The notes beneath the pieces are model-generated. The model had not been told where the DNA came from. It made no database searches and worked only from the letters and a program-made list of their open reading frames with translations. A stretch of 64,000 nt of DNA from Metaclostridioides mangenotii (GTDB taxonomy: Bacteria > Bacillota > Clostridia > Peptostreptococcales > Peptostreptococcaceae), in assembly GCF_018917235.1 (NCBI RefSeq), contig NZ_JAHLOF010000003.1, positions 1-64,000 on the forward strand, written 5' to 3'. The position numbers were made by a program, and so were the translations under genes. This document shows, piece after piece, positions 38,846 to 46,570 of this stretch (position 1 is its first letter; each line of letters starts with the position of its first letter).

Positions 38846-39877
38846 TTATTGTTCTTCTAATTTTTCAACTAATTTACTTCCAACCTTCTCTAAGTTTACT
38901 TTTTTATCATCAGTCATAACTTCCTTAATTCCCTTAAATGTTCCAAGTAAATTAACTGTATCCGAAGGTAATACCAACTTAGTAGCATCTCCTTCACCTA
39001 GTTTGGCAAGTGCTTCCATAGATTTAAGTGCAAGCATGTTGTCGTCTATATTGGACTCTTTCATAGCTGTAAATACTAATCTAAGGCCGTCCGCTGTAGC
39101 TTTTTGGGTTCTTGAAATCATCTCTGCTTCACCTTGTGCTTTAGCTATTGCCATTTGTCTTATAGCTTCTGCCTCACCTTGTGCTATTAGTACAGCAGAT
39201 TCCTTTTCCCCTTCAGCTTCACGAACCATAGCTTCTTTTGTAGCCTCTGCTCTAAGAATAGCAGATTGCTTATCTCCTTCTGCTTGTAGAATTGCAGATG
39301 CTTTATTACCTTCTGCTTGTAGGATAGATTCTCGTCTCTCCCTCTCAGCTCTCATCTGCTTTTCCATTGCAACTTGTATATCATTAGGAGGCATTATATT
39401 CTTTAGCTCAACTCTATTTACCTTAATACCCCATTTATCAGTTGCCTCATCTAATATAGATCTCATCTTTGCATTAATTATATCTCTTGAAGTAAGAGTT
39501 TCATCAAGGTCTAATTCCCCGATAATATTTCTAAGAGTAGTTGCCGATAAATTTTCTATGGCCGAAATTGGATTTGCTATTTCAAAAACATACCCAACTG
39601 GATCAGTTACTTTGTAGTAAACAACTGTATCTATTTGCATAGTAACGTTGTCTTTAGTAATAACTGGTTGTGGTGGAAAATCCATAACAATTTCTCTTAA
39701 GTCTATTACATACGCCATTCTGTCTAAAAATGGAACTAAAAAATGTACCCCTGTGTCTGCAGCCTTGTGGAATTTCCCAAGCCTCATAATAATACCCATT
39801 CTAGATTGTTGAATTACTCTTATGCAAGATATACTTGCTACAGCAACCAATACAATCACTATCCCTATTAATAACAT
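38846..39877 (-). CDS. SPFH/stomatin-prohibitin (QmcA-like) membrane protein
   Basis: Membrane scaffold protein of the stomatin/HflK class. An N-terminal helix (about 2-20), then the SPFH domain (about 22-190; IRVIQQSRMGIIMRLGKFHKAADTGVHFLVPF, VDTVVYYKVTDPVGYVFEI, ATTLRNIIGELDLDETLTSRD) and a helical region with Ala/Glu-rich repeats (about 190-260, QAEGNKASAILQAEGDKQSAIL) that oligomerises. It follows the NfeD gene by 12 bp, the standard pairing. Thought to organise membrane microdomains and protein quality control. Confidence 0.92.
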   Translation of the reverse strand: MLLIGIVIVLVAVASISCIRVIQQSRMGIIMRLGKFHKAADTGVHFLVPFLDRMAYVIDLREIVMDFPPQPVITKDNVTMQIDTVVYYKVTDPVGYVFEIANPISAIENLSATTLRNIIGELDLDETLTSRDIINAKMRSILDEATDKWGIKVNRVELKNIMPPNDIQVAMEKQMRAERERRESILQAEGNKASAILQAEGDKQSAILRAEATKEAMVREAEGEKESAVLIAQGEAEAIRQMAIAKAQGEAEMISRTQKATADGLRLVFTAMKESNIDDNMLALKSMEALAKLGEGDATKLVLPSDTVNLLGTFKGIKEVMTDDKKVNLEKVGSKLVEKLEEQ

Positions 39878-39889
39878 ATCTATTCCCTC

Positions 39890-40336
39890 CTATATCTCAG
39901 CTTTTTCAGTTGCAAATTCAGACTTTTTTACAACTAGCTTTACACCTTCTATTTTCAACACTTCAACTTTGCTTCCCTTATCAATCTTTTCATTATCAAA
40001 TGAGATTGCTGTCCACTCTTCTCTATCTACTATTACCAACCCTGTTTTATTAGGAAGTATATCCTCTTTAACATAACCTTTAGCATTAAGTACTGCCTGC
40101 AAGTTTGTATTATACTTATAGCTACTGTCTTTTTTTACAAAATACTTTGTCGCTATAAATAGCATAGTAAATGAAATAATAGCAAATATCAAAATCTGAA
40201 TAAATAGGTTCTCAATCACCATACTCAAAAATATGAGAGCTACAGCACCTAAACTGAACCAAATTAGTGTAAGACTTGGTGTCAAAAGTTCTGCTATTCC
40301 AAAAACAATCGCAACACCTAACCATATCAATTGCAT
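39890..40336 (-). CDS. NfeD-like membrane protein
   Basis: 148-aa short NfeD protein. Two or three hydrophobic helices (about 5-25, 30-45, 47-65; LIWLGVAIVFGIAELLTPSLTLIWFSLGAVALIFLS) precede a C-terminal OB-fold (about 85-145; LQAVLNAKGYVKEDILPNKTGLVIVDREEWTAIS). This is the usual partner of SPFH proteins, encoded directly upstream. GGGAGGATATACT lies before the ATG. Confidence 0.9.
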   Translation of the reverse strand: MQLIWLGVAIVFGIAELLTPSLTLIWFSLGAVALIFLSMVIENLFIQILIFAIISFTMLFIATKYFVKKDSSYKYNTNLQAVLNAKGYVKEDILPNKTGLVIVDREEWTAISFDNEKIDKGSKVEVLKIEGVKLVVKKSEFATEKAEI

Positions 40337-40448
40337 AGTATATCCTCCCTCTTTTTATGTCTAATACCCTATAATATAATATGAGATTATATTGATTTAA
40401 TTATAACATTATATCTTAATATTATGTGAAAATTTTTAAAGTTTATTA

Positions 40449-40477
40449 TTGACTTTTATTATTTTCTATTTTATAAT
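40449..40477 (+). promoter_or_regulatory. Promoter of the attenuated amino-acid ABC operon
   Basis: TTGACT (40449-40454), exactly 17 bp, TATAAT (40472-40477): an almost perfect sigma-A promoter. Transcription would begin near 40484, giving a leader of about 325 nt before the permease gene. Confidence 0.85.
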
Positions 40478-40545
40478 AATCGATAAGCCAAGAGAGTTAA
40501 AACTTTCTGACAATTATATTAATAAAATTTTAAGGAGAGATAATT

Positions 40546-40599
40546 ATGATTACTTTATTAAACAATAACAAATATTATTACTATAGCCAATACTTATAG
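40546..40599 (+). CDS. Tyrosine-rich leader peptide (17 aa)
   Basis: MITLLNNNKYYYYSQYL, with four consecutive Tyr codons (40573-40584) and a fifth at 40591-40593. AAGGAGA lies 7 bp before the ATG, as good a ribosome site as any full gene here. The stop codon TAG ends at 40599, the first base of RNA segment 1 of the attenuator. Such a codon cluster beside mutually exclusive hairpins is the hallmark of an amino-acid attenuator: slow translation at Tyr codons would report tyrosyl-tRNA shortage. No protein function is expected. Confidence 0.8.
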   Translation: MITLLNNNKYYYYSQYL

Positions 40600-40706
40600 G
40601 GTTTGTAACTATACAAAATAGATGCAAACCCGTCGACAAATCGAATTGGGATTGTATCTATGTTGGTTATAGAATTTTGTTTATATATAGTTTTCATATA
40701 ATATAT

Positions 40707-40741
40707 AAAAAAGCCACGTAGATAAAACTATGTGGCTTTTT
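40707..40741 (+). terminator. Attenuator terminator 1
   Basis: AGCCACGTAG pairs with CTATGTGGCT (one G-T pair) around a 6-nt loop ATAAAA, preceded by A residues and followed by TTTT. It lies in the leader of the operon rather than after a gene. Confidence 0.85.
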
Positions 40742-40747
40742 CGTTGT

Positions 40748-40781
40748 AGCCACATAGTACTTTACTCTATGTGGCTTTTTT
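40748..40781 (+). terminator. Attenuator terminator 2
   Basis: AGCCACATAG pairs perfectly with CTATGTGGCT, followed by six T. The stem is nearly the same sequence as terminator 1, so the inner arms of the two hairpins can pair with each other instead. It ends 30 bp before the permease start. Confidence 0.88.
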
Positions 40782-40810
40782 GTATATAAATTTTTAAGGG
40801 GGTTCTAAAT

Positions 40811-41674
40811 ATGAGCAGTATTTTATCAGTAATAACGCAAAGTTTAATTTTATCAATTATGGCCATAGGTGTTTATATTACCTACAAGATTCTGGATTTT
40901 CCAGATATGTCAGCAGATGGGAGTTACACTCTAGGAGCATCAGTAGTAGCTGCATCATTAATGGGAGGTATGAATCCAGTTCCTGCAACCTTGCTTGCGG
41001 TTATATGTGGATCATTAGCTGGAATGATTACAGGTTTGCTACATGTAAAGCTTAAAATTACAAATCTACTATCTGGGATTCTTGTAATGGGTATGCTTTA
41101 CTCTGTAAATTTAAGAATAATGGGAAAATCAAATATCCCGCTCTTTAGCTACAAGCATCTATTTAACTCTGAATCATCACCTGTTTTACTAGCACTTATA
41201 TTTTTAATAATTTGTAAATTATTTCTGGATTTATTTTTAAAAACTAGTATAGGTTATACACTAAAGGGAGTTGGGGATAATTCACAAATGATAAAATCAC
41301 TAGGAATAGATATTGGCTATATAAAAATATTAGGACTTATGATATCAAATGGACTTATAGCACTTGCTGGTGCTCTTATGGCTCAATTCCAAGGATTTAC
41401 AGACGTGAATATGGGTACTGGTACGCTAGTACTAGGGATTGCATCAATAATAATAGGTTTAACTCTATTTAATAAGTTTAAGTTTATTAACAATACCACT
41501 TCAATAGTAGTAGGTGCTTTTATCTATCAATTTACTATTTACTACGCAATGCAAAGAGGTATGCTACCGACAGACTTAAAACTGATTACAGCATTAGTTA
41601 TAGTTGCATTTTTATCTGCGAGCAACTTAAAATTTCCTAAAAAGAAACAAGAAAAAGAAAAGGTGGTGGCGTAA
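40811..41674 (+). CDS. Amino-acid ABC transporter permease (TrpY-like), predicted tyrosine uptake
   Basis: 287-aa integral membrane permease of the TrpXYZ-type family (related to branched-chain/sugar LivH-like permeases). It has eight or so helices: SLILSIMAIGVYITYKILDFPDMSADGSYTLGASV, the glycine-rich VICGSLAGMITGLLHVKLKI, TNLLSGILVMGMLYSVNLRIM, and GIDIGYIKILGLMISNGLIALAGALMAQFQGF. AAGGGGG lies 8 bp upstream. The Tyr leader peptide and attenuator ahead of it suggest the substrate is tyrosine, whereas the best-known relatives import tryptophan. Confidence 0.85.
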   Translation: MSSILSVITQSLILSIMAIGVYITYKILDFPDMSADGSYTLGASVVAASLMGGMNPVPATLLAVICGSLAGMITGLLHVKLKITNLLSGILVMGMLYSVNLRIMGKSNIPLFSYKHLFNSESSPVLLALIFLIICKLFLDLFLKTSIGYTLKGVGDNSQMIKSLGIDIGYIKILGLMISNGLIALAGALMAQFQGFTDVNMGTGTLVLGIASIIIGLTLFNKFKFINNTTSIVVGAFIYQFTIYYAMQRGMLPTDLKLITALVIVAFLSASNLKFPKKKQEKEKVVA

Positions 41675-42430
41675 ATGCTAGAGATTAAAAATATATCAAA
41701 GACTTTTGACAACCCCTATGGAGATTCAAATACAATTTTTAGAGACTTGTCATTGAAAATAGATTCAGGTGAATTCGTTACAATCATCGGCAGTAATGGT
41801 ACTGGAAAATCAACTCTTTTAAATATTATTTCTGGACTTATAAAACAAACTTCAGGAGAAATACTTGTTGACGATAAAGATATAACAAATGCTCCTGAAC
41901 ATAAGAGAACTCAAATAATAAGTAGAGTGTTTCAAGATCCAAGTCTAGGAACATGTCCGTCTATGACTGTAAGAGAAAATCTTTCACTTGCGCTAAATAA
42001 AGGAAATCTTTTAAATTTAAAAAGATGCTTAAGATATAAAAAAGAATTCTTAGAAGGTTTATTAGAAGGTGTCTCATTGGATCTAAAAAAATACTTAGAT
42101 GTTCAAGTTATGTATTTATCTGGTGGTCAAAGACAGTCATTGTCTCTTATAATATCATGTCTTACAGATCCATCTGTACTGCTATTAGATGAACATACTG
42201 CTGCACTTGATCCCAAAACTTCAAATGAGGTCATTGAACTTACAAATAAGATTGTGAGAGAAAAGAAAATAACAACCCTTATGGTAACTCATAATCTTAA
42301 ACATGCTCTAGAATACGGAGATAGGCTGATTATGTTACATAAGGGGAAAATTGTTCTAGACGTTAAACAAACAGAAAAATGCAAACTAAGTATTGAAGAG
42401 ATCCTCAACAGATTTGAGTACGCAGTATAA
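41675..42430 (+). CDS. Amino-acid ABC transporter ATP-binding protein (TrpZ-like)
   Basis: 251-aa ATPase of the same importer. Walker A IIGSNGTGKSTLLNIISG, Q-loop VFQDPSLGTCPSMTVRENLS, signature LSGGQRQSLSLIISCL, Walker B VLLLDEHTAALDPKTS (His replaces the usual Pro after Glu, common in this family) and switch VTHNL. The ATG follows the permease stop codon without a gap, so they are translationally coupled; GGTGG is in the permease tail. Confidence 0.92.
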   Translation: MLEIKNISKTFDNPYGDSNTIFRDLSLKIDSGEFVTIIGSNGTGKSTLLNIISGLIKQTSGEILVDDKDITNAPEHKRTQIISRVFQDPSLGTCPSMTVRENLSLALNKGNLLNLKRCLRYKKEFLEGLLEGVSLDLKKYLDVQVMYLSGGQRQSLSLIISCLTDPSVLLLDEHTAALDPKTSNEVIELTNKIVREKKITTLMVTHNLKHALEYGDRLIMLHKGKIVLDVKQTEKCKLSIEEILNRFEYAV

Positions 42431-42544: not shown

Positions 42545-43549
42545 ATGATAAATAAAAGAAAGGCAATTAGTCTAGCACTTACATCTGTACTTGTAGGGAC
42601 GATTCTTACAGGATGTTCAAGTAAGAATACTTCAGCAAATAACAATAACACCAAAAATGGAAGTGATACAAAGAAGATAGGTATAACTCAACTTGTCGAA
42701 CACCCAGCACTTGATGCTACAAAAACAGGATTTATAAATGCATTGAAAGATAATGGATTTGAAGAAGGAAAAAATATAGATATAGATTTTAAAAATGCAC
42801 AAAATGATATGCCCACTACTCAAACTATAGCGAGTTCGTTCGCATCAGATAAAAAAGATTTAATATTCGCTATATCTACGCCATCTGCACAAGCTGCCTT
42901 TAATGCAACTAAGGATATCCCAATACTATTTACAGCTGTAACTGATCCAGTAGAAGCTGGTTTAGTAAAAAATCCTGATAAACCTGAAGGGAACGTAACA
43001 GGAACTTCTGATTTTATACCTGTCTCAAATGCAATTACACTTATAAAAGATTTAGCTCCGAATGCTAAAACTGTTGGAATAATTGGGAATACAAGTGAGA
43101 TAAATTCTAAAATACAAATAGATGAATTTAAAAAAGAAGCAGAGAAAAATGGATTCACTGTAGTTGTAAAAGGAATAACAACATCAAACGAAGTTAATCA
43201 AGCTGTTTCTAGTTTAGCAGGAAAAGTAGACGTTATATACACTCCTACTGATAATTTAGTTGCATCTTCAATGCCTATTATCTCTAAAATTGCAACGGAA
43301 AATAAAATTCCAGTTATTGGTGCCGAGGAAGCTCATGTTAAAAACGGTGCTCTAGCATGTAATGGTATAAGCTACGAAAAACTTGGATACAAAGCTGGAG
43401 AAGATGCAGTAAAAATATTAAAAGGTGAAAAAATTGCTAGTGTTCCAGTTTCAACTCTAGAAGAAACTGAGACTATCATAAATGAAACTACTTTAGACTC
43501 TCTTGGAATAGAGAAGCCTAAAAGCGAAGGAATTACTTTTATTAAATAA
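42545..43549 (+). CDS. Amino-acid ABC transporter substrate-binding lipoprotein (TrpX-like)
   Basis: Lipoprotein (lipobox ILTGC, Cys about residue 24) of the ABC-substrate-binding family containing TrpX, which binds aromatic amino acids in streptococci. Motifs: IGITQLVEHPALDATKTGFINAL (about 45-67), IFAISTPSAQAAFNATKDIPILFTAVTDPVEAGLV, VDVIYTPTDNLVASSM and NGISYEKLGYKAGEDAVKIL. It is third in permease-ATPase-binding protein order, with AGGAGG before the ATG. The 114-bp gap after the ATPase shows no terminator. A Ser/Asn-rich linker follows the lipidated Cys. Confidence 0.9.
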   Translation: MINKRKAISLALTSVLVGTILTGCSSKNTSANNNNTKNGSDTKKIGITQLVEHPALDATKTGFINALKDNGFEEGKNIDIDFKNAQNDMPTTQTIASSFASDKKDLIFAISTPSAQAAFNATKDIPILFTAVTDPVEAGLVKNPDKPEGNVTGTSDFIPVSNAITLIKDLAPNAKTVGIIGNTSEINSKIQIDEFKKEAEKNGFTVVVKGITTSNEVNQAVSSLAGKVDVIYTPTDNLVASSMPIISKIATENKIPVIGAEEAHVKNGALACNGISYEKLGYKAGEDAVKILKGEKIASVPVSTLEETETIINETTLDSLGIEKPKSEGITFIK

Positions 43550-43762: not shown

Positions 43763-44836
43763 TTAAATGCAAAATAACTTATCCTCGGGAAATTCTAAGT
43801 ATACTGTATCATTTTTTTCGTATTTAAAGTTATCCTTTTCTATATCTACTTGAACATTGCAATTATTATTATAGAGTTCAATGCTTTTATTATTCTCTTT
43901 TAAATTATTAAAATACAATTTAAAACTAAAAGGATTCTCAACTGTATATACTAAATTAAAACTAAATATATTTTCTGAATCAGTAAAAAAATCTCTAACA
44001 ACTATATCATGTTCTCTTATCCCAATGTATTCAATATCTCTATAAATAATTTCTGGTACAGTAAGCTCAATACCCCAATCTAGAGCAAACACAGTGCAAT
44101 CACCTGTTTTCTTAGCTTTAGATATGTTTTTACATCCAGTAATTTTAGCTTCTGAATAAGATTGCGGTCTATCAAATAGTGATTTTTTGTCTCTCTTATT
44201 TACACCAATGCCACTATCGTAAACAATAATATCATCGCATACCCTGTATGCTTCTTCAATATCATGCGTTACAAAGAGTATATCTCCACTGTAATCTTTT
44301 ATCAAATTTAAAAGTTCTTTTTCCATATTACTTCTTAAATGATGATCAAGAGCAGAAAAAGGTTCATCTAAAAGTAGTATTTCAGGAGAAGTAGCAAGAA
44401 CTCTTGATAGAGCAACCCTTTGTTGTTGTCCTCCAGATAGTTGCCAAGGGAATCTTTCCTCCATACCTTTAAGTCCAACTATTCCCAAATAATAGCTAGA
44501 AATTTTTCTTTTTTCTTTCTTATCTAAATTTTTAAGTCCCAACTCGATATTTTGGCTAACTGTCATATGTGGAAATAGAGCATAGTTTTGAAATAAAAAA
44601 CCAACATTTCGATCTCTAGTTGGTATATTTATGTTTTTATCAGAATCAAATAAAACTCTATCATTTAGTATTATTTTTCCTCTAGTTGGTTTTTCAAGTC
44701 CAGCTATACATTTTAATGTCATACTCTTTCCAGAACCAGATTCCCCTAAGAATCCTAATATTCCTTTGCTTTGAATTATTTTTACTTTTAGTTTAAAAGA
44801 GGGTAATTCTTTCTCGATTTCTACATATAAGCTCAT
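43763..44836 (-). CDS. modC: Molybdate ABC transporter ATP-binding protein ModC
   Basis: 357-aa ATPase of the molybdate importer. Walker A FLGESGSGKSMTLKCIAG, signature [16 protein letters not shown], Walker B ILLLDEPFSALDHHLR and switch VTHDIEEAYRVCD. The C-terminal part (about 225-357) is a diverged TOBE-like region with KITGCKNISKAKK and IGIREHDI, as in ModC. The start overlaps the modB stop (TAATGA), so B and C are coupled. Confidence 0.9.
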   Translation of the reverse strand: MSLYVEIEKELPSFKLKVKIIQSKGILGFLGESGSGKSMTLKCIAGLEKPTRGKIILNDRVLFDSDKNINIPTRDRNVGFLFQNYALFPHMTVSQNIELGLKNLDKKEKRKISSYYLGIVGLKGMEERFPWQLSGGQQQRVALSRVLATSPEILLLDEPFSALDHHLRSNMEKELLNLIKDYSGDILFVTHDIEEAYRVCDDIIVYDSGIGVNKRDKKSLFDRPQSYSEAKITGCKNISKAKKTGDCTVFALDWGIELTVPEIIYRDIEYIGIREHDIVVRDFFTDSENIFSFNLVYTVENPFSFKLYFNNLKENNKSIELYNNNCNVQVDIEKDNFKYEKNDTVYLEFPEDKLFCI

Positions 44837-45519
44837 TATCTTCCTCTCTTTCCTACAATTTTTTGTTGTATATCAGACCAATAGTTAAGCAACAATATCA
44901 TAGCAATAGACATTAATACAATTATAATAACCCACATCATTGCTTTATTCATATCCCCACCTTCTACTGCAAAAAATATCGCTAAAGGCATAGTCTGTGT
45001 TCTCCCTGGAATATTTCCAGCAATCATTAGAGTTGCACCAAACTCTCCTAATGCTCTTGCAAAAGATAAAACTAATCCCCCTACTATCCCTGGTAAAGCC
45101 AATGGGATTGCAATTTTGGTAAAAACTTTCCATTCATTTAAACCTAAAGTCCTAGCAGCTGACAACATATTATCATCAATTTGTTCAAAGGCCGATCTGG
45201 ACGATCTGTACATCATTGGAAATGATACAACTACAGCCGCAAGAACTGTTGCACTCCAACTAAAAATTATATTTTTATCCATAGTTAAAAATATTTTTCC
45301 TACAAAGCCATTTTTTCCACATATTAATAATAAGAAAAAACCCACAACTGTTGGAGGGAGTACTAATGGCAATGTAAATACACCATCAATTAACCCCTTC
45401 CATCTTCCTCTATATGTTGCCATAGCATACGAAATTAGGATCCCTACTACAAATGTTATAACAGTTGCAAGAAGAGATGTCTTTACTGATATCCAAAGTG
45501 GTGCCCAGTCTGTAATCAT
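44836..45519 (-). CDS. modB: Molybdate ABC transporter permease ModB
   Basis: 227-aa permease with five or six helices and the ModB-type EAA region SAARTLGLNEWKVFTKIAIPLALPGIVGGLVLSFARALGEFGATLMIAG (about residues 120-170). AGGAGG precedes the ATG. A terminator separates it from modA upstream, yet the order modA-modB-modC in one direction implies some read-through or its own promoter. A perfect 16-bp palindrome TTCTATATATATAGAA (45559-45574) lies 40 bp upstream. Confidence 0.92.
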   Translation of the reverse strand: MITDWAPLWISVKTSLLATVITFVVGILISYAMATYRGRWKGLIDGVFTLPLVLPPTVVGFFLLLICGKNGFVGKIFLTMDKNIIFSWSATVLAAVVVSFPMMYRSSRSAFEQIDDNMLSAARTLGLNEWKVFTKIAIPLALPGIVGGLVLSFARALGEFGATLMIAGNIPGRTQTMPLAIFFAVEGGDMNKAMMWVIIIVLMSIAMILLLNYWSDIQQKIVGKRGR

Positions 45520-45619
45520 ATTTCTCCTCCTAATGTAAAACTAGTACATATATATTATTTCTATATATATAGAACGATAAACTATTTATTAAATTAAAAA
45601 TATATTAATATCTCAAAAA

Positions 45620-45661
45620 AATAGTGAAATTAACTTTTGTATCAAAGCCAATTTCACTATT
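45620..45661 (-). terminator. Terminator between modA and modB
   Basis: AATAGTGAAATT pairs perfectly with AATTTCACTATT around an 18-nt loop. It lies between the modA stop and modB, so it would cap modA expression above modBC, a common way of making more binding protein than membrane complex. Confidence 0.75.
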
Positions 45662-45709
45662 TATTGTAACTTATATATTGTATTTTTTAAAGACAAGTAA
45701 CATAATGAA

Positions 45710-46522
45710 TTATTTAGCTATTTTTTTATATCCGTATTTTTCTAATATAGTTTGACCTTTATCACTTAATAAAAACTCTTCAAACTTTTTAGCTTCATCA
45801 ACTTTATTGCTGTCTTTTATTACTGCTATTGGATATGTAATAGGTGAATGAGTATCTGCTTCTGTTGTAGCAACTACTTTTATTTTATCATTTTTTATTG
45901 TATCGCTTAAATATACAAACCCAGCGTCCGCTTCACCTGATTGAACCCAAGCTAATACTTCTTTAACATCTTTAGCAAATACAAGTTTGTCTTTTAATTG
46001 ATCTTTAAGCTTTAAATTTGTCAAAACTTCATCTGCATATTTACCAGCTGGAACACTTTCTGGCTCACCAACTGCAATTTTTTTAACATCATTTGCAGTG
46101 ATTCCATCTATTTTTTCTAACTTGCTGTCTTTAGGAGCAATTAATACTAAATCGTTTTCAACTAATCCCTTATTAGTTTCTTTTACTATCAGATCTTTTT
46201 CATCAAGTGCATCCATTTGCTTTTTACCTGCAGAAATAAACACGTCACAAGGTGCTCCTTGCTCTATTTGTTGTTGAAGTGATCCTGATGCACCAAAATT
46301 AACTGTAAGTTTTACATTATCATTTTCTTTTTTATACTCTTTTTCAAGTTCTGCCATTGCTTCTTTGAGACTTGCAGCAGCAGAAATATTTAACTCAACT
46401 GTTTCAGTTTTATTATTGTTATCTTTTGCTACTTCTTTTTTTGAATCATCTTTCCCTGAACATGCTACTAATCCTATGGATAGACATAAAACTAAACATA
46501 AAATACCTAAACTTTTTTTCAT
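45710..46522 (-). CDS. modA: Molybdate ABC transporter substrate-binding lipoprotein ModA
   Basis: About 270-aa lipoprotein (lipobox LVACSGKD) binding molybdate or tungstate outside the cell. ModA motifs: NISAAASLKEAMAELEKEY, VNFGASGSLQQQIEQGAPCDVFISAGKKQMDAL (about 75-110), LIAPKDSKL, KIAVGEPESVPAGKYADEVL and WVQSGEADAGFVYLSD. The ATG at 46522 (MKKSLGIL) is used because AAAGGAGA is then 8 bp away. It is divergent from the HTH/PBP regulator gene, whose likely operator overlaps the modA promoter. Confidence 0.93.
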   Translation of the reverse strand: MKKSLGILCLVLCLSIGLVACSGKDDSKKEVAKDNNNKTETVELNISAAASLKEAMAELEKEYKKENDNVKLTVNFGASGSLQQQIEQGAPCDVFISAGKKQMDALDEKDLIVKETNKGLVENDLVLIAPKDSKLEKIDGITANDVKKIAVGEPESVPAGKYADEVLTNLKLKDQLKDKLVFAKDVKEVLAWVQSGEADAGFVYLSDTIKNDKIKVVATTEADTHSPITYPIAVIKDSNKVDEAKKFEEFLLSDKGQTILEKYGYKKIAK

Positions 46523-46570
46523 TTTCAACTCTCCTTTATACCTTCTAATTTACAATCGAGACAAATAGAC

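Follow-up and report, generated by a model that had tools for sequence, protein, structure and literature searches.

The transporter operon that begins at position 40811 of the window, a 64,000-nucleotide stretch of the 2.87-Mb draft genome of Metaclostridioides mangenotii, is preceded by a leader in which a short open reading frame rich in tyrosine codons is followed by a chain of competing hairpins. This raises the question of which signal the leader senses, and how that signal would act on transcription. T-boxes sense amino-acid supply through tRNA and need no peptide, while the trp and his operons of Proteobacteria are controlled by ribosome-mediated attenuators with four segments. From sequence comparisons and fold calculations we conclude, with a probability that we put at roughly 0.87, that the leader is a ribosome-mediated transcription attenuator acting at tyrosine codons, which would open a likely tyrosine-uptake operon. 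We favour this reading because the reading frame, its Tyr/Phe codons and the competing helices are conserved, because exchanges of the codon run fit the genes downstream, and because masked folds agree with it.

Organization of the leader region

Read directly, window positions 40449-40810 hold a promoter, a Shine-Dalgarno sequence, a 17-codon reading frame and a chain of competing hairpins (Table 1), in agreement with the original prediction, which had named the TTGACT-17-TATAAT promoter, a run of four Tyr codons plus one more, and a stop codon that overlaps segment 1. The promoter boxes (TTGACT at 40449-40454, TATAAT at 40472-40477, spacer of 17 nt) match the consensus at 11 of 12 positions and form the best of 12 promoter-like sites between 39800 and 41600; shuffled sequences yield as many (12.6), so that a promoter-like site alone is no evidence. 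The reading frame extends from the ATG at 40546 to the TAG at 40597-40599, the G of which is the first G of segment 1, and its fifth Tyr codon is codon 16 (40591-40593).

Table 1. Features of the leader and of the operon behind it, in window coordinates.
Feature	Position	Strand	Basis
Promoter TTGACT-17-TATAAT	40449..40477	+	similar TTGACT and TATAAT boxes before leaders L007, L010, L013
Shine-Dalgarno AAGGAGAG of leader ORF	40532..40539	+	sequence reading
Leader ORF MITLLNNNKYYYYSQYL* (17 codons + TAG)	40546..40599	+	kept in relatives
Control codons 10-13, four Tyr (TAT TAT TAC TAT)	40573..40584	+	sequence reading
Segment 0 (codons Tyr13-Ser14-Gln15), partner of 3b	40582..40590	+	91.5% of cells paired
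Segment 1, begins at last base of stop codon	40599..40611	+	duplex energy, alignment
Segment 2, partner of 1 or 3a	40618..40631	+	duplex energy, alignment
Segment 3	40648..40671	+	alignment, masked folding
Segment 4, left arm of terminator 1, partner of 5 or 3	40708..40723	+	duplex energy, alignment
Segment 5, right arm of terminator 1 with T tract, partner of 4 or 6	40728..40741	+	
Segment 6, left arm of terminator 2, partner of 7 or 5	40748..40757	+	duplex energy
Segment 7 with T tract, right arm of terminator 2	40767..40781	+	sequence reading, duplex energy
ABC transporter permease (BPD_transp_2)	40811..41674	+	
ABC transporter ATPase	41675..42430	+	
Substrate-binding lipoprotein	42545..43549	+	nearest solved relative CD0873 (6hni)

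The alternating pairs of the chain as originally drawn hold up, with duplex energies of -17.3 (1:2), -17.9 (2:3), -14.6 (3:4), -19.5 (4:5), -16.2 (5:6) and -16.3 kcal/mol (6:7), but its count of seven segments does not: an eighth, segment 0 (TATAGCCAA, 40582-40590), can pair with TTGGTTATA (40663-40671) to form helix 0:3 (-12.1 kcal/mol), which had been overlooked. Segment 3 has three partners, with part 3a (40648-40661) pairing with segment 2, part 3b (40663-40671) with segment 0, and positions 40656-40668 with segment 4. Two further pairings lie outside the chain, 3:6 at -16.5 and 4:7 at -21.1 kcal/mol. The two proposed terminator hairpins with T tracts, 4:5 and 6:7, are both seen in the sequence; neither was reported by a simple terminator scan of 39800-41600, as far as seen because the T tracts are engaged in A-T pairs at the stem bases. 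The 201-nt RNA from segment 0 to terminator 2 (40582-40782) has a fold energy of -71.9, compared with -35.6 (sd 3.9) for dinucleotide shuffles (z -9.4; 0 of 200 as good).

The view that no T-box is present was borne out, as a search with RF00230 returned none at the gathering level in the window and none in the leader up to an E-value of 5. No other Rfam family reached its gathering score in the leader, and a T-box or other Rfam family was rejected as its explanation for want of a gathering-level match. At the window edge, positions 1-124 hold the start of a minus-strand 16S rRNA gene, cut by the edge.

Conservation and covariation in clostridia

A permease scan of named genomes gave 119 relatives, and 80 loci were retained. 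Upstream DNA was read for 19 of the 80, and 17 of these carry a Tyr/Phe leader ORF together with the same RNA; in the two exceptions (L024 and L033) a binding-protein gene occupies the leader's place. A script search for ORFs with four or more Tyr codons covered 29 of the 80 loci. Hosts of the leader include Metaclostridioides, C. difficile, Asaccharospora, Peptacetobacter, Peptostreptococcus, Tepidibacter, Clostridium acetireducens and Clostridium tetanomorphum, among others, and the window genome itself has a second copy, a Phe-type leader (MNTLINKQARFSFNSQFI*). Among the redundant clostridial leaders, Tyr runs of three or more codons occur in ten spellings, with 100 TAT and 20 TAC codons. 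The expectation of a conserved Tyr run was therefore confirmed in that the control codons are kept, but they are kept as Tyr or Phe.

Covariation was assessed on a MAFFT alignment of 24 clostridial leaders (A2), which includes the window sequence. Helices 1:2, 2:3, 3:4 and 0:3 have 94.8, 92.9, 95.7 and 91.5% of their cells paired, respectively, with two-sided changes in 5, 6 and 3 pairs of the former three and in 6 of the 9 pairs of 0:3; two-sided cells number 20 for 0:3 and 8 or 9 for each of the others. The covariation scores (0.300, 0.217, 0.230 and 0.368 in the same order, compared with 0.223, 0.155, 0.175 and 0.210 when shuffled) exceed all 500 shuffles for each helix, a control that ignores relatedness. 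Slid versions of the helices have far fewer cells paired and far lower scores, a comparison that favours the true register partly because the structure was drawn on the window sequence. The covariation that the original prediction expected for 1:2, 2:3 and 3:4 is thus present in these leaders, with 3:4 the weakest, its number of two-sided pairs being reached by 50 of the 500 shuffles.

A covariance model made from this alignment, fitted to 0:3, 2:3 and 4:5 and not to 1:2 or 3:4, aligned 99 matches (A3). On this alignment 1:2 and 3:4 have 91.7 and 92.7% of cells paired, with 39 and 22 two-sided cells (9.2 and 8.0 in shuffles), counts that include the last six rows, which are antisense or partial matches. 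The 4 two-sided pairs of 3:4 do not rise above shuffles (272 of 500 reach this number), and 3:4 slid by -2 has 31 two-sided cells compared with 22, at 46% of cells paired. Dropping the six artefact rows left 93, and thinning these at 85% identity left 50 sequences, with 91.9 (1:2), 92.7 (2:3), 92.1 (3:4), 86.6 (4:5) and 90.5% (0:3) of cells paired. The clostridial model has matches in 47 of 71 genomes of the family, at 95 places, of which 78 were read and 77 have the ORF in register; the leaders are interrelated, and these counts are not counts of independent events. The alignments therefore point to mutually exclusive helices, one of them a putative terminator, that are backed by covariation.

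Predicted effect of ribosome position

Masked folding was carried out on the window RNA from an assumed start at 40484 through segment 4, bases under the ribosome footprint being kept unpaired. Helix 3:4 formed with a probability of 0.28-0.68 when one of codons 10-13 occupied the A site, and of 0.00-0.01 when this was codon 14, 16 or 18 or when no ribosome was present. With the leading edge of the footprint varied from +9 to +17, the permissive band lay within codons 8-15 and overlapped the Tyr run every time, and codon 16 was off at all of these edges. Two RNA starts and two RNA ends gave a permissive band at codons 9-13 (0.14-0.86), with 0.00-0.02 at codons 2-7 and 0.00-0.05 at codons 14-18. 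By calculation, then, before segment 5 is made a ribosome on the control codons frees the antiterminator and a ribosome at the stop codon does not, and the proposed comparison of folds with segment 1 blocked or free came out as anticipated, 3:4 forming only when the ribosome stood at the Tyr run or next to it. The folds predict no control function for the fifth Tyr codon, codon 16, because a ribosome there already covers segment 1. The starvation logic of the original prediction was thus sound in its core, attenuation at Tyr codons being in accord with conservation, codon swaps and masked folds, but it missed helix 0:3.

In the mechanism that we propose, a ribosome held at the four Tyr codons would mask segment 0 and leave segment 1 free; segment 1 would trap segment 2, segment 3 would then capture segment 4, the left arm of terminator 1, and the operon would be on. 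The freed arm 5 would pair with segment 6 and disarm terminator 2. Three other situations would leave the operon off: without a ribosome, segments 0 and 2 would jointly hold segment 3 and the terminators would form; with a ribosome upstream of codon 8, helix 0:3 would keep segment 3; and with a ribosome at the stop codon, segments 0 and 1 would be covered, segment 2 would take segment 3, and terminator 4:5 and then 6:7 would form. Segment 0 would set the upstream edge of the permissive band and segment 1 its downstream edge. Once segment 5 is included, the equilibrium fold is terminator 4:5 in every state (0.96), and with both terminators complete the equilibrium favours one long hairpin, 4:7 enclosing 5:6, with a T tract at its end. 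An on state would accordingly have to rest on kinetics, as it commonly does in attenuators. We infer stalling on uncharged tRNA-Tyr, kinetic trapping of 3:4, and termination and its relief.

The leader resembles the proteobacterial trp and his attenuators in the amino-acid run of its peptide, its mutually exclusive hairpins, its intrinsic terminator and the use of ribosome position as the presumed signal. It differs in having eight segments rather than four, the extra helices 1:2 and 2:3 being interposed because the antiterminator strand lies far from the ORF, and many clostridial members also differ in having two or three terminators in series. In the terms of E. coli trp, we take segments 0, 3, 4 and 5 to be strands 1, 2, 3 and 4; segments 1 and 2 would be extra, and would be needed since segment 3 lies too far from the stop codon for the ribosome to cover it.

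A looser measure, any upstream pairing of arm 4, was scored for 180 of 194 leaders given; it is also high at codons 2-8 of the window leader and hence is not our main evidence. By this measure 142 of the 180 leaders have a higher probability of arm 4 pairing with the ribosome on the control codons than with it at the stop (ABC 49/49, BrnQ 17/20, SNF 4/7, SNF-Leu 4/5, His 17/26, trpB 51/73), with ABC-type means of 0.64 on the control codons, 0.17 at the stop and 0.17 without a ribosome. Control codons also exceed the state without a ribosome in 49/49 ABC, 19/20 BrnQ, 5/7 SNF, 4/5 SNF-Leu, 10/26 His and 49/73 trpB leaders; in the His leaders, the state without a ribosome is not predicted to be off.

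The downstream operon and exchange of control codons

The binding protein of the operon matches CD0873 of C. difficile (6hni) with an E-value of 2e-133. CD0873 binds tyrosine, and its Glu is Ala in Phe- and Trp-binding relatives (PMC6816091). In the window protein, the residue that aligns with the Glu taken as contacting tyrosine is also Glu, a correspondence that derives from the alignment and not from the numbering in PMC6816091. From these similarities, the operon is likely to serve tyrosine uptake. The pocket positions are Glu in 35 and Asp in 1, and Tyr in all 36, of 36 clostridial matches to the binding protein, a set that includes near-identical copies, matches upstream of the leader, and seven matches from five loci (L024-L026, L033 and L038) without such a leader noted. 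A rule by which Phe-type leaders would mark Phe transporters was dropped, since Phe-type loci share the Glu/Tyr pocket with Tyr-type loci. Four ABC leaders (L017, L020, L023 and L035) carry VVF, IIF or FVF, and the amino acid that they would sense is ambiguous.

Five loci (L012:6946-7118, L265, L268, L269 and L295) have an extra Tyr-run leader (e.g. MKTTALLNSKTYYYYYSLYI*) directly before a substrate-binding gene; that of L012 sits between two binding-protein matches, downstream of the first leader. Beyond the operon in the window, the minus strand at 43763-46528 holds genes for a putative molybdate-type ABC transporter (ATPase, permease and binding protein).

The codon run changes with the genes behind it in a redundant set of 108 leaders, composed of the 77 in-register clostridial leaders and 31 further ones, in which gene classes were assigned by best match to examples from the same set that had been named by reading. 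His runs occur in all 26 leaders before hisZ or a His-type ABC binding protein and in none of the 82 others, Leu runs in all 5 leaders of one SNF symporter subgroup, and Tyr/Phe runs before TrpX-type ABC genes (50), BrnQ-like carriers (20) and other SNF carriers (7). By sequence comparison, the window leader thus belongs in layout to a widespread group in which the codon run is swapped, and this group overlaps two Rfam families. The BrnQ-like family is commonly named for branched-chain amino acid transport; the leaders suggest aromatic substrates for those BrnQ-like carriers that stand behind Tyr/Phe runs. Such carriers are found at L239-L242, L244-L246, L248, L249, L255-L258 and L260, and leaders with LLL(L) runs stand before SNF-type symporters at L094, L106, L278, L280 and L281.

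Relation to the trpB motif and sRNA_2410

The 3' half of the leader gives a full-length match (1-107) to the trpB motif, RF04312, at 37.8 bits, below its gathering cut-off of 59; five of eight related loci score 38.9-50.8 bits and three have no match up to an E-value of 0.1. As in that motif, a helix P1 and then a terminator P2 precede a transporter operon of the same family. P1 is equivalent to 2:3 and P2 to 4:5, and TrpX-type transporter genes or trpB lie downstream; unlike the window leader, the Rfam model has no ORF and lacks segments 0 and 1. The motif, with more than 900 representatives, has been presented as a strong riboswitch candidate with a speculated ligand from amino-acid metabolism (PMC11109978), the one paper found on it among open-licence papers.

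In a sample of 148 genomes from one order (taken as Lactobacillales), 78 have an RF04312 match, and all 87 places were examined. An ORF led by a Shine-Dalgarno sequence stands in the right place at 87 of 87 (shuffles: mean 24, at most 35), with a Trp codon among its last ten codons at 83 and two or more at 50; in 200 shuffled sets, at least one Trp was found at a mean of 2.5 places (at most 7) and two or more at a mean of 0.15, the ORF with most Trp being chosen per place in both cases. Three of the places without Trp contain YYFSYFR, FYFSYFR or FNFSYFR, and L172, which still counts among the 87, resembles a gene end. Matches L095, L098, L104 and L105 were, like L172, rejected as apparent chance matches or terminators at gene ends. 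In 50 thinned Trp leaders, helices 1:2 (85.7% of cells paired, shuffles 79.7) and 0:3 (74.2%, shuffles 66.5) are above all 500 shuffles, and 3:4 has a weak excess in cells paired (81.4 compared with 79.7, reached by 4 of 500) and in two-sided cells (15 compared with 9.9, reached by 81 of 500). The binding protein was matched in 24 of the 30 loci L110-L139; its first pocket position is Val in 23 of these and Ala in 1, its second is invariably Gln, and Gln in the pocket has been tied to tryptophan binding (PMC6816091). Among 391 genomes of the class Clostridia, RF04312 matches with E-values up to 0.001 occur in 19, the window genome not being among them, and none is above the cut-off; in a sample of the phylum, one of 348 genomes has a match with an E-value up to 0.0001.

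The second family, RF02863, matches the window leader at 27.3 bits (cut-off 61) and is matched in 84 of the 148 genomes. It is catalogued as a small RNA, sRNA_2410 of E. faecium, for which two transcripts on Northern blots and an RNA-seq size of 195 nt have been reported (PMC5593968). Its four best loci (L299-L302) have ORFs ending in FFFSYFR or FYFSYFR before a TrpX-type protein and in this resemble the window leader. Where RF02863 and trpB places coincide, three are of the Phe/Tyr type (L176, L190 and L195) and one of the Trp type (L148). We conclude that sRNA_2410 is probably a terminated leader. Several genomes (e.g. G736, G845, G791, G728 and G814) have an RF02863 place and a trpB-motif place separated by about 3 kb, an arrangement that would suit two neighbouring operons, each with a different leader.

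Tandem terminators

By script, two or more terminator-like hairpins follow segment 3 in at least 70 of 82 clostridial Tyr/Phe/Leu leaders and in 2 of 26 His leaders of the redundant set, the former being a lower count because the script misses hairpins visible by eye (L018, L090, L094, L106, L234, L235, L262 and L266); a stricter script gives 57/82 and 0/26. The cascade had been called unusual, but most clostridial leaders of the Tyr, Phe and Leu types have terminators in tandem, and the layout is widespread. The Phe-type copy of the window genome and its relatives have a third hairpin between the two terminators. Phe-type leaders with three similar hairpins were seen at L002:1609-1920, L016, L108 and L230; in L002 and L016 the middle hairpin has no T tract and would serve for relay alone.

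In 34 thinned leaders, arms 5 and 6 of the same leader pair at -13.5 kcal/mol compared with -11.2 kcal/mol for arms of other leaders (0 of 20000 permutations); against shuffled letters the figure is -4.2 kcal/mol, and the leader's own arm is better in 34 of 34. The same leaders give -13.6 compared with -11.3 kcal/mol for 4:7, and because 4:7 is equally complementary, the relay through 5:6 is the least secure step of the mechanism. The two-terminator cascade of the original prediction accordingly fits the conserved 5:6 complementarity without being singled out by it, 4:7 being just as complementary, and the complementarity of 5:6 may merely reflect two terminators that are alike. We regard a relay of the on state through 5:6 to the second terminator as nearly an even bet, falling just short of one.

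Alternative explanations

The main competitor to the relay is an attenuator in which the second terminator is a mere backup duplicate and 5:6 has no role, a reading that we take seriously and hold at clearly less than even odds. A backup would suit the copy-like appearance of terminator 2 beside terminator 1, the single hairpin that the script counts in most His leaders, the single terminator in the model of the Lactobacillales-type Trp motif, the long hairpin of 4:7 and 5:6 as the equilibrium form, and the complementarity of 4:7, which equals that of 5:6. Against it stand the better pairing of same-leader arms than of mixed arms, and the consideration that a terminator 2 disarmed by nothing would cancel antitermination.

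Two other explanations concern the signal itself. We consider it very improbable that the leader RNA acts as a riboswitch by direct binding of a metabolite (e.g. an aromatic amino acid), the short ORF being incidental. The match of the leader's 3' half to RF04312 would favour this, as would the standing of that motif as a riboswitch candidate, although the accessible text of PMC11109978 indicates that its authors did not rule out a classic attenuator. More telling are the ORFs at all RF04312 places, nearly all with Trp codons near the end, the change of codons with the operon while the RNA layout stays, and the location of segment 0 inside the leader codons. Arrest peptides exist in bacteria, and the leader peptide could answer a signal other than charged tRNA-Tyr, for example by arrest of the nascent chain by tyrosine or a small molecule; we give this very little credence, as the codon run varies (Tyr, Phe, His, Leu or Trp) while the layout stays, and the on state is predicted at any of codons 10-13. 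Attenuation at the control codons therefore remains our preferred reading. Its extension, that the Bacillota hold a codon-programmable attenuator superfamily (Tyr/Phe/Trp/His/Leu) as a counterpart of the T-box, with RF04312 and RF02863 as members and with clostridia relaying one ribosome position to two or three serial terminators, we offer tentatively and at rather under even odds.

Relation to known systems and implications

The window genome has 22 T-boxes above the cut-off, among them T-boxes before genes that read, from their protein starts, as tyrS (L209), pheS (L197) and trpP-like (L217). T-boxes and the window leader would both be tied to amino-acid supply via tRNA, and only the leader involves a peptide; in this genome, separate kinds of RNA device would monitor tRNA charging and uptake. 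A tyrS T-box has been described in C. difficile, in a paper that mentions neither CD0873, leader peptides nor attenuation (PMC11477304). Leader peptides with His runs are known from Firmicutes, including C. difficile and other Peptostreptococcaceae (Naville and Gautheret 2010, PMC2965389; Ashniev et al. 2022, PMC9413887), the latter paper also describing the principle of ribosome-mediated attenuation. The Firmicutes His leaders found here have an RNA laid out like that of the window leader, two hairpins being counted by script in 2 of 26; the accessible parts of those two papers describe His leaders alone, compared with the Tyr, Phe, Trp and Leu versions found here. Among open-licence papers, no Tyr, Phe or Trp leader peptide was found for these genes, the nearest case being the uORFC-13-1 motif of Acholeplasma, a proposed upstream ORF with Phe codons before a terminator and aroF (PMC8632094). 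Judged by its description, this motif is like the window leader in combining an upstream ORF, a terminator and an aromatic gene, and differs in organisms and gene.

Our results suggest that low-GC Firmicutes would use leader peptides for several amino acids alongside T-boxes, as in the window genome, where tyrS stands under a T-box and the likely tyrosine-uptake operon under a leader. The codon run would then predict the substrates of poorly annotated transporters, such as the BrnQ-like and SNF carriers whose leaders have Tyr, Phe or Leu runs. If our reading is true, RF04312, an orphan riboswitch candidate, would acquire a testable leader-peptide mechanism and the search for its ligand would be redirected, and sRNA_2410, detected on Northern blots, would be reinterpreted as a terminated leader. 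If the relay is true as well, a single decision would be passed along the RNA to several terminators.
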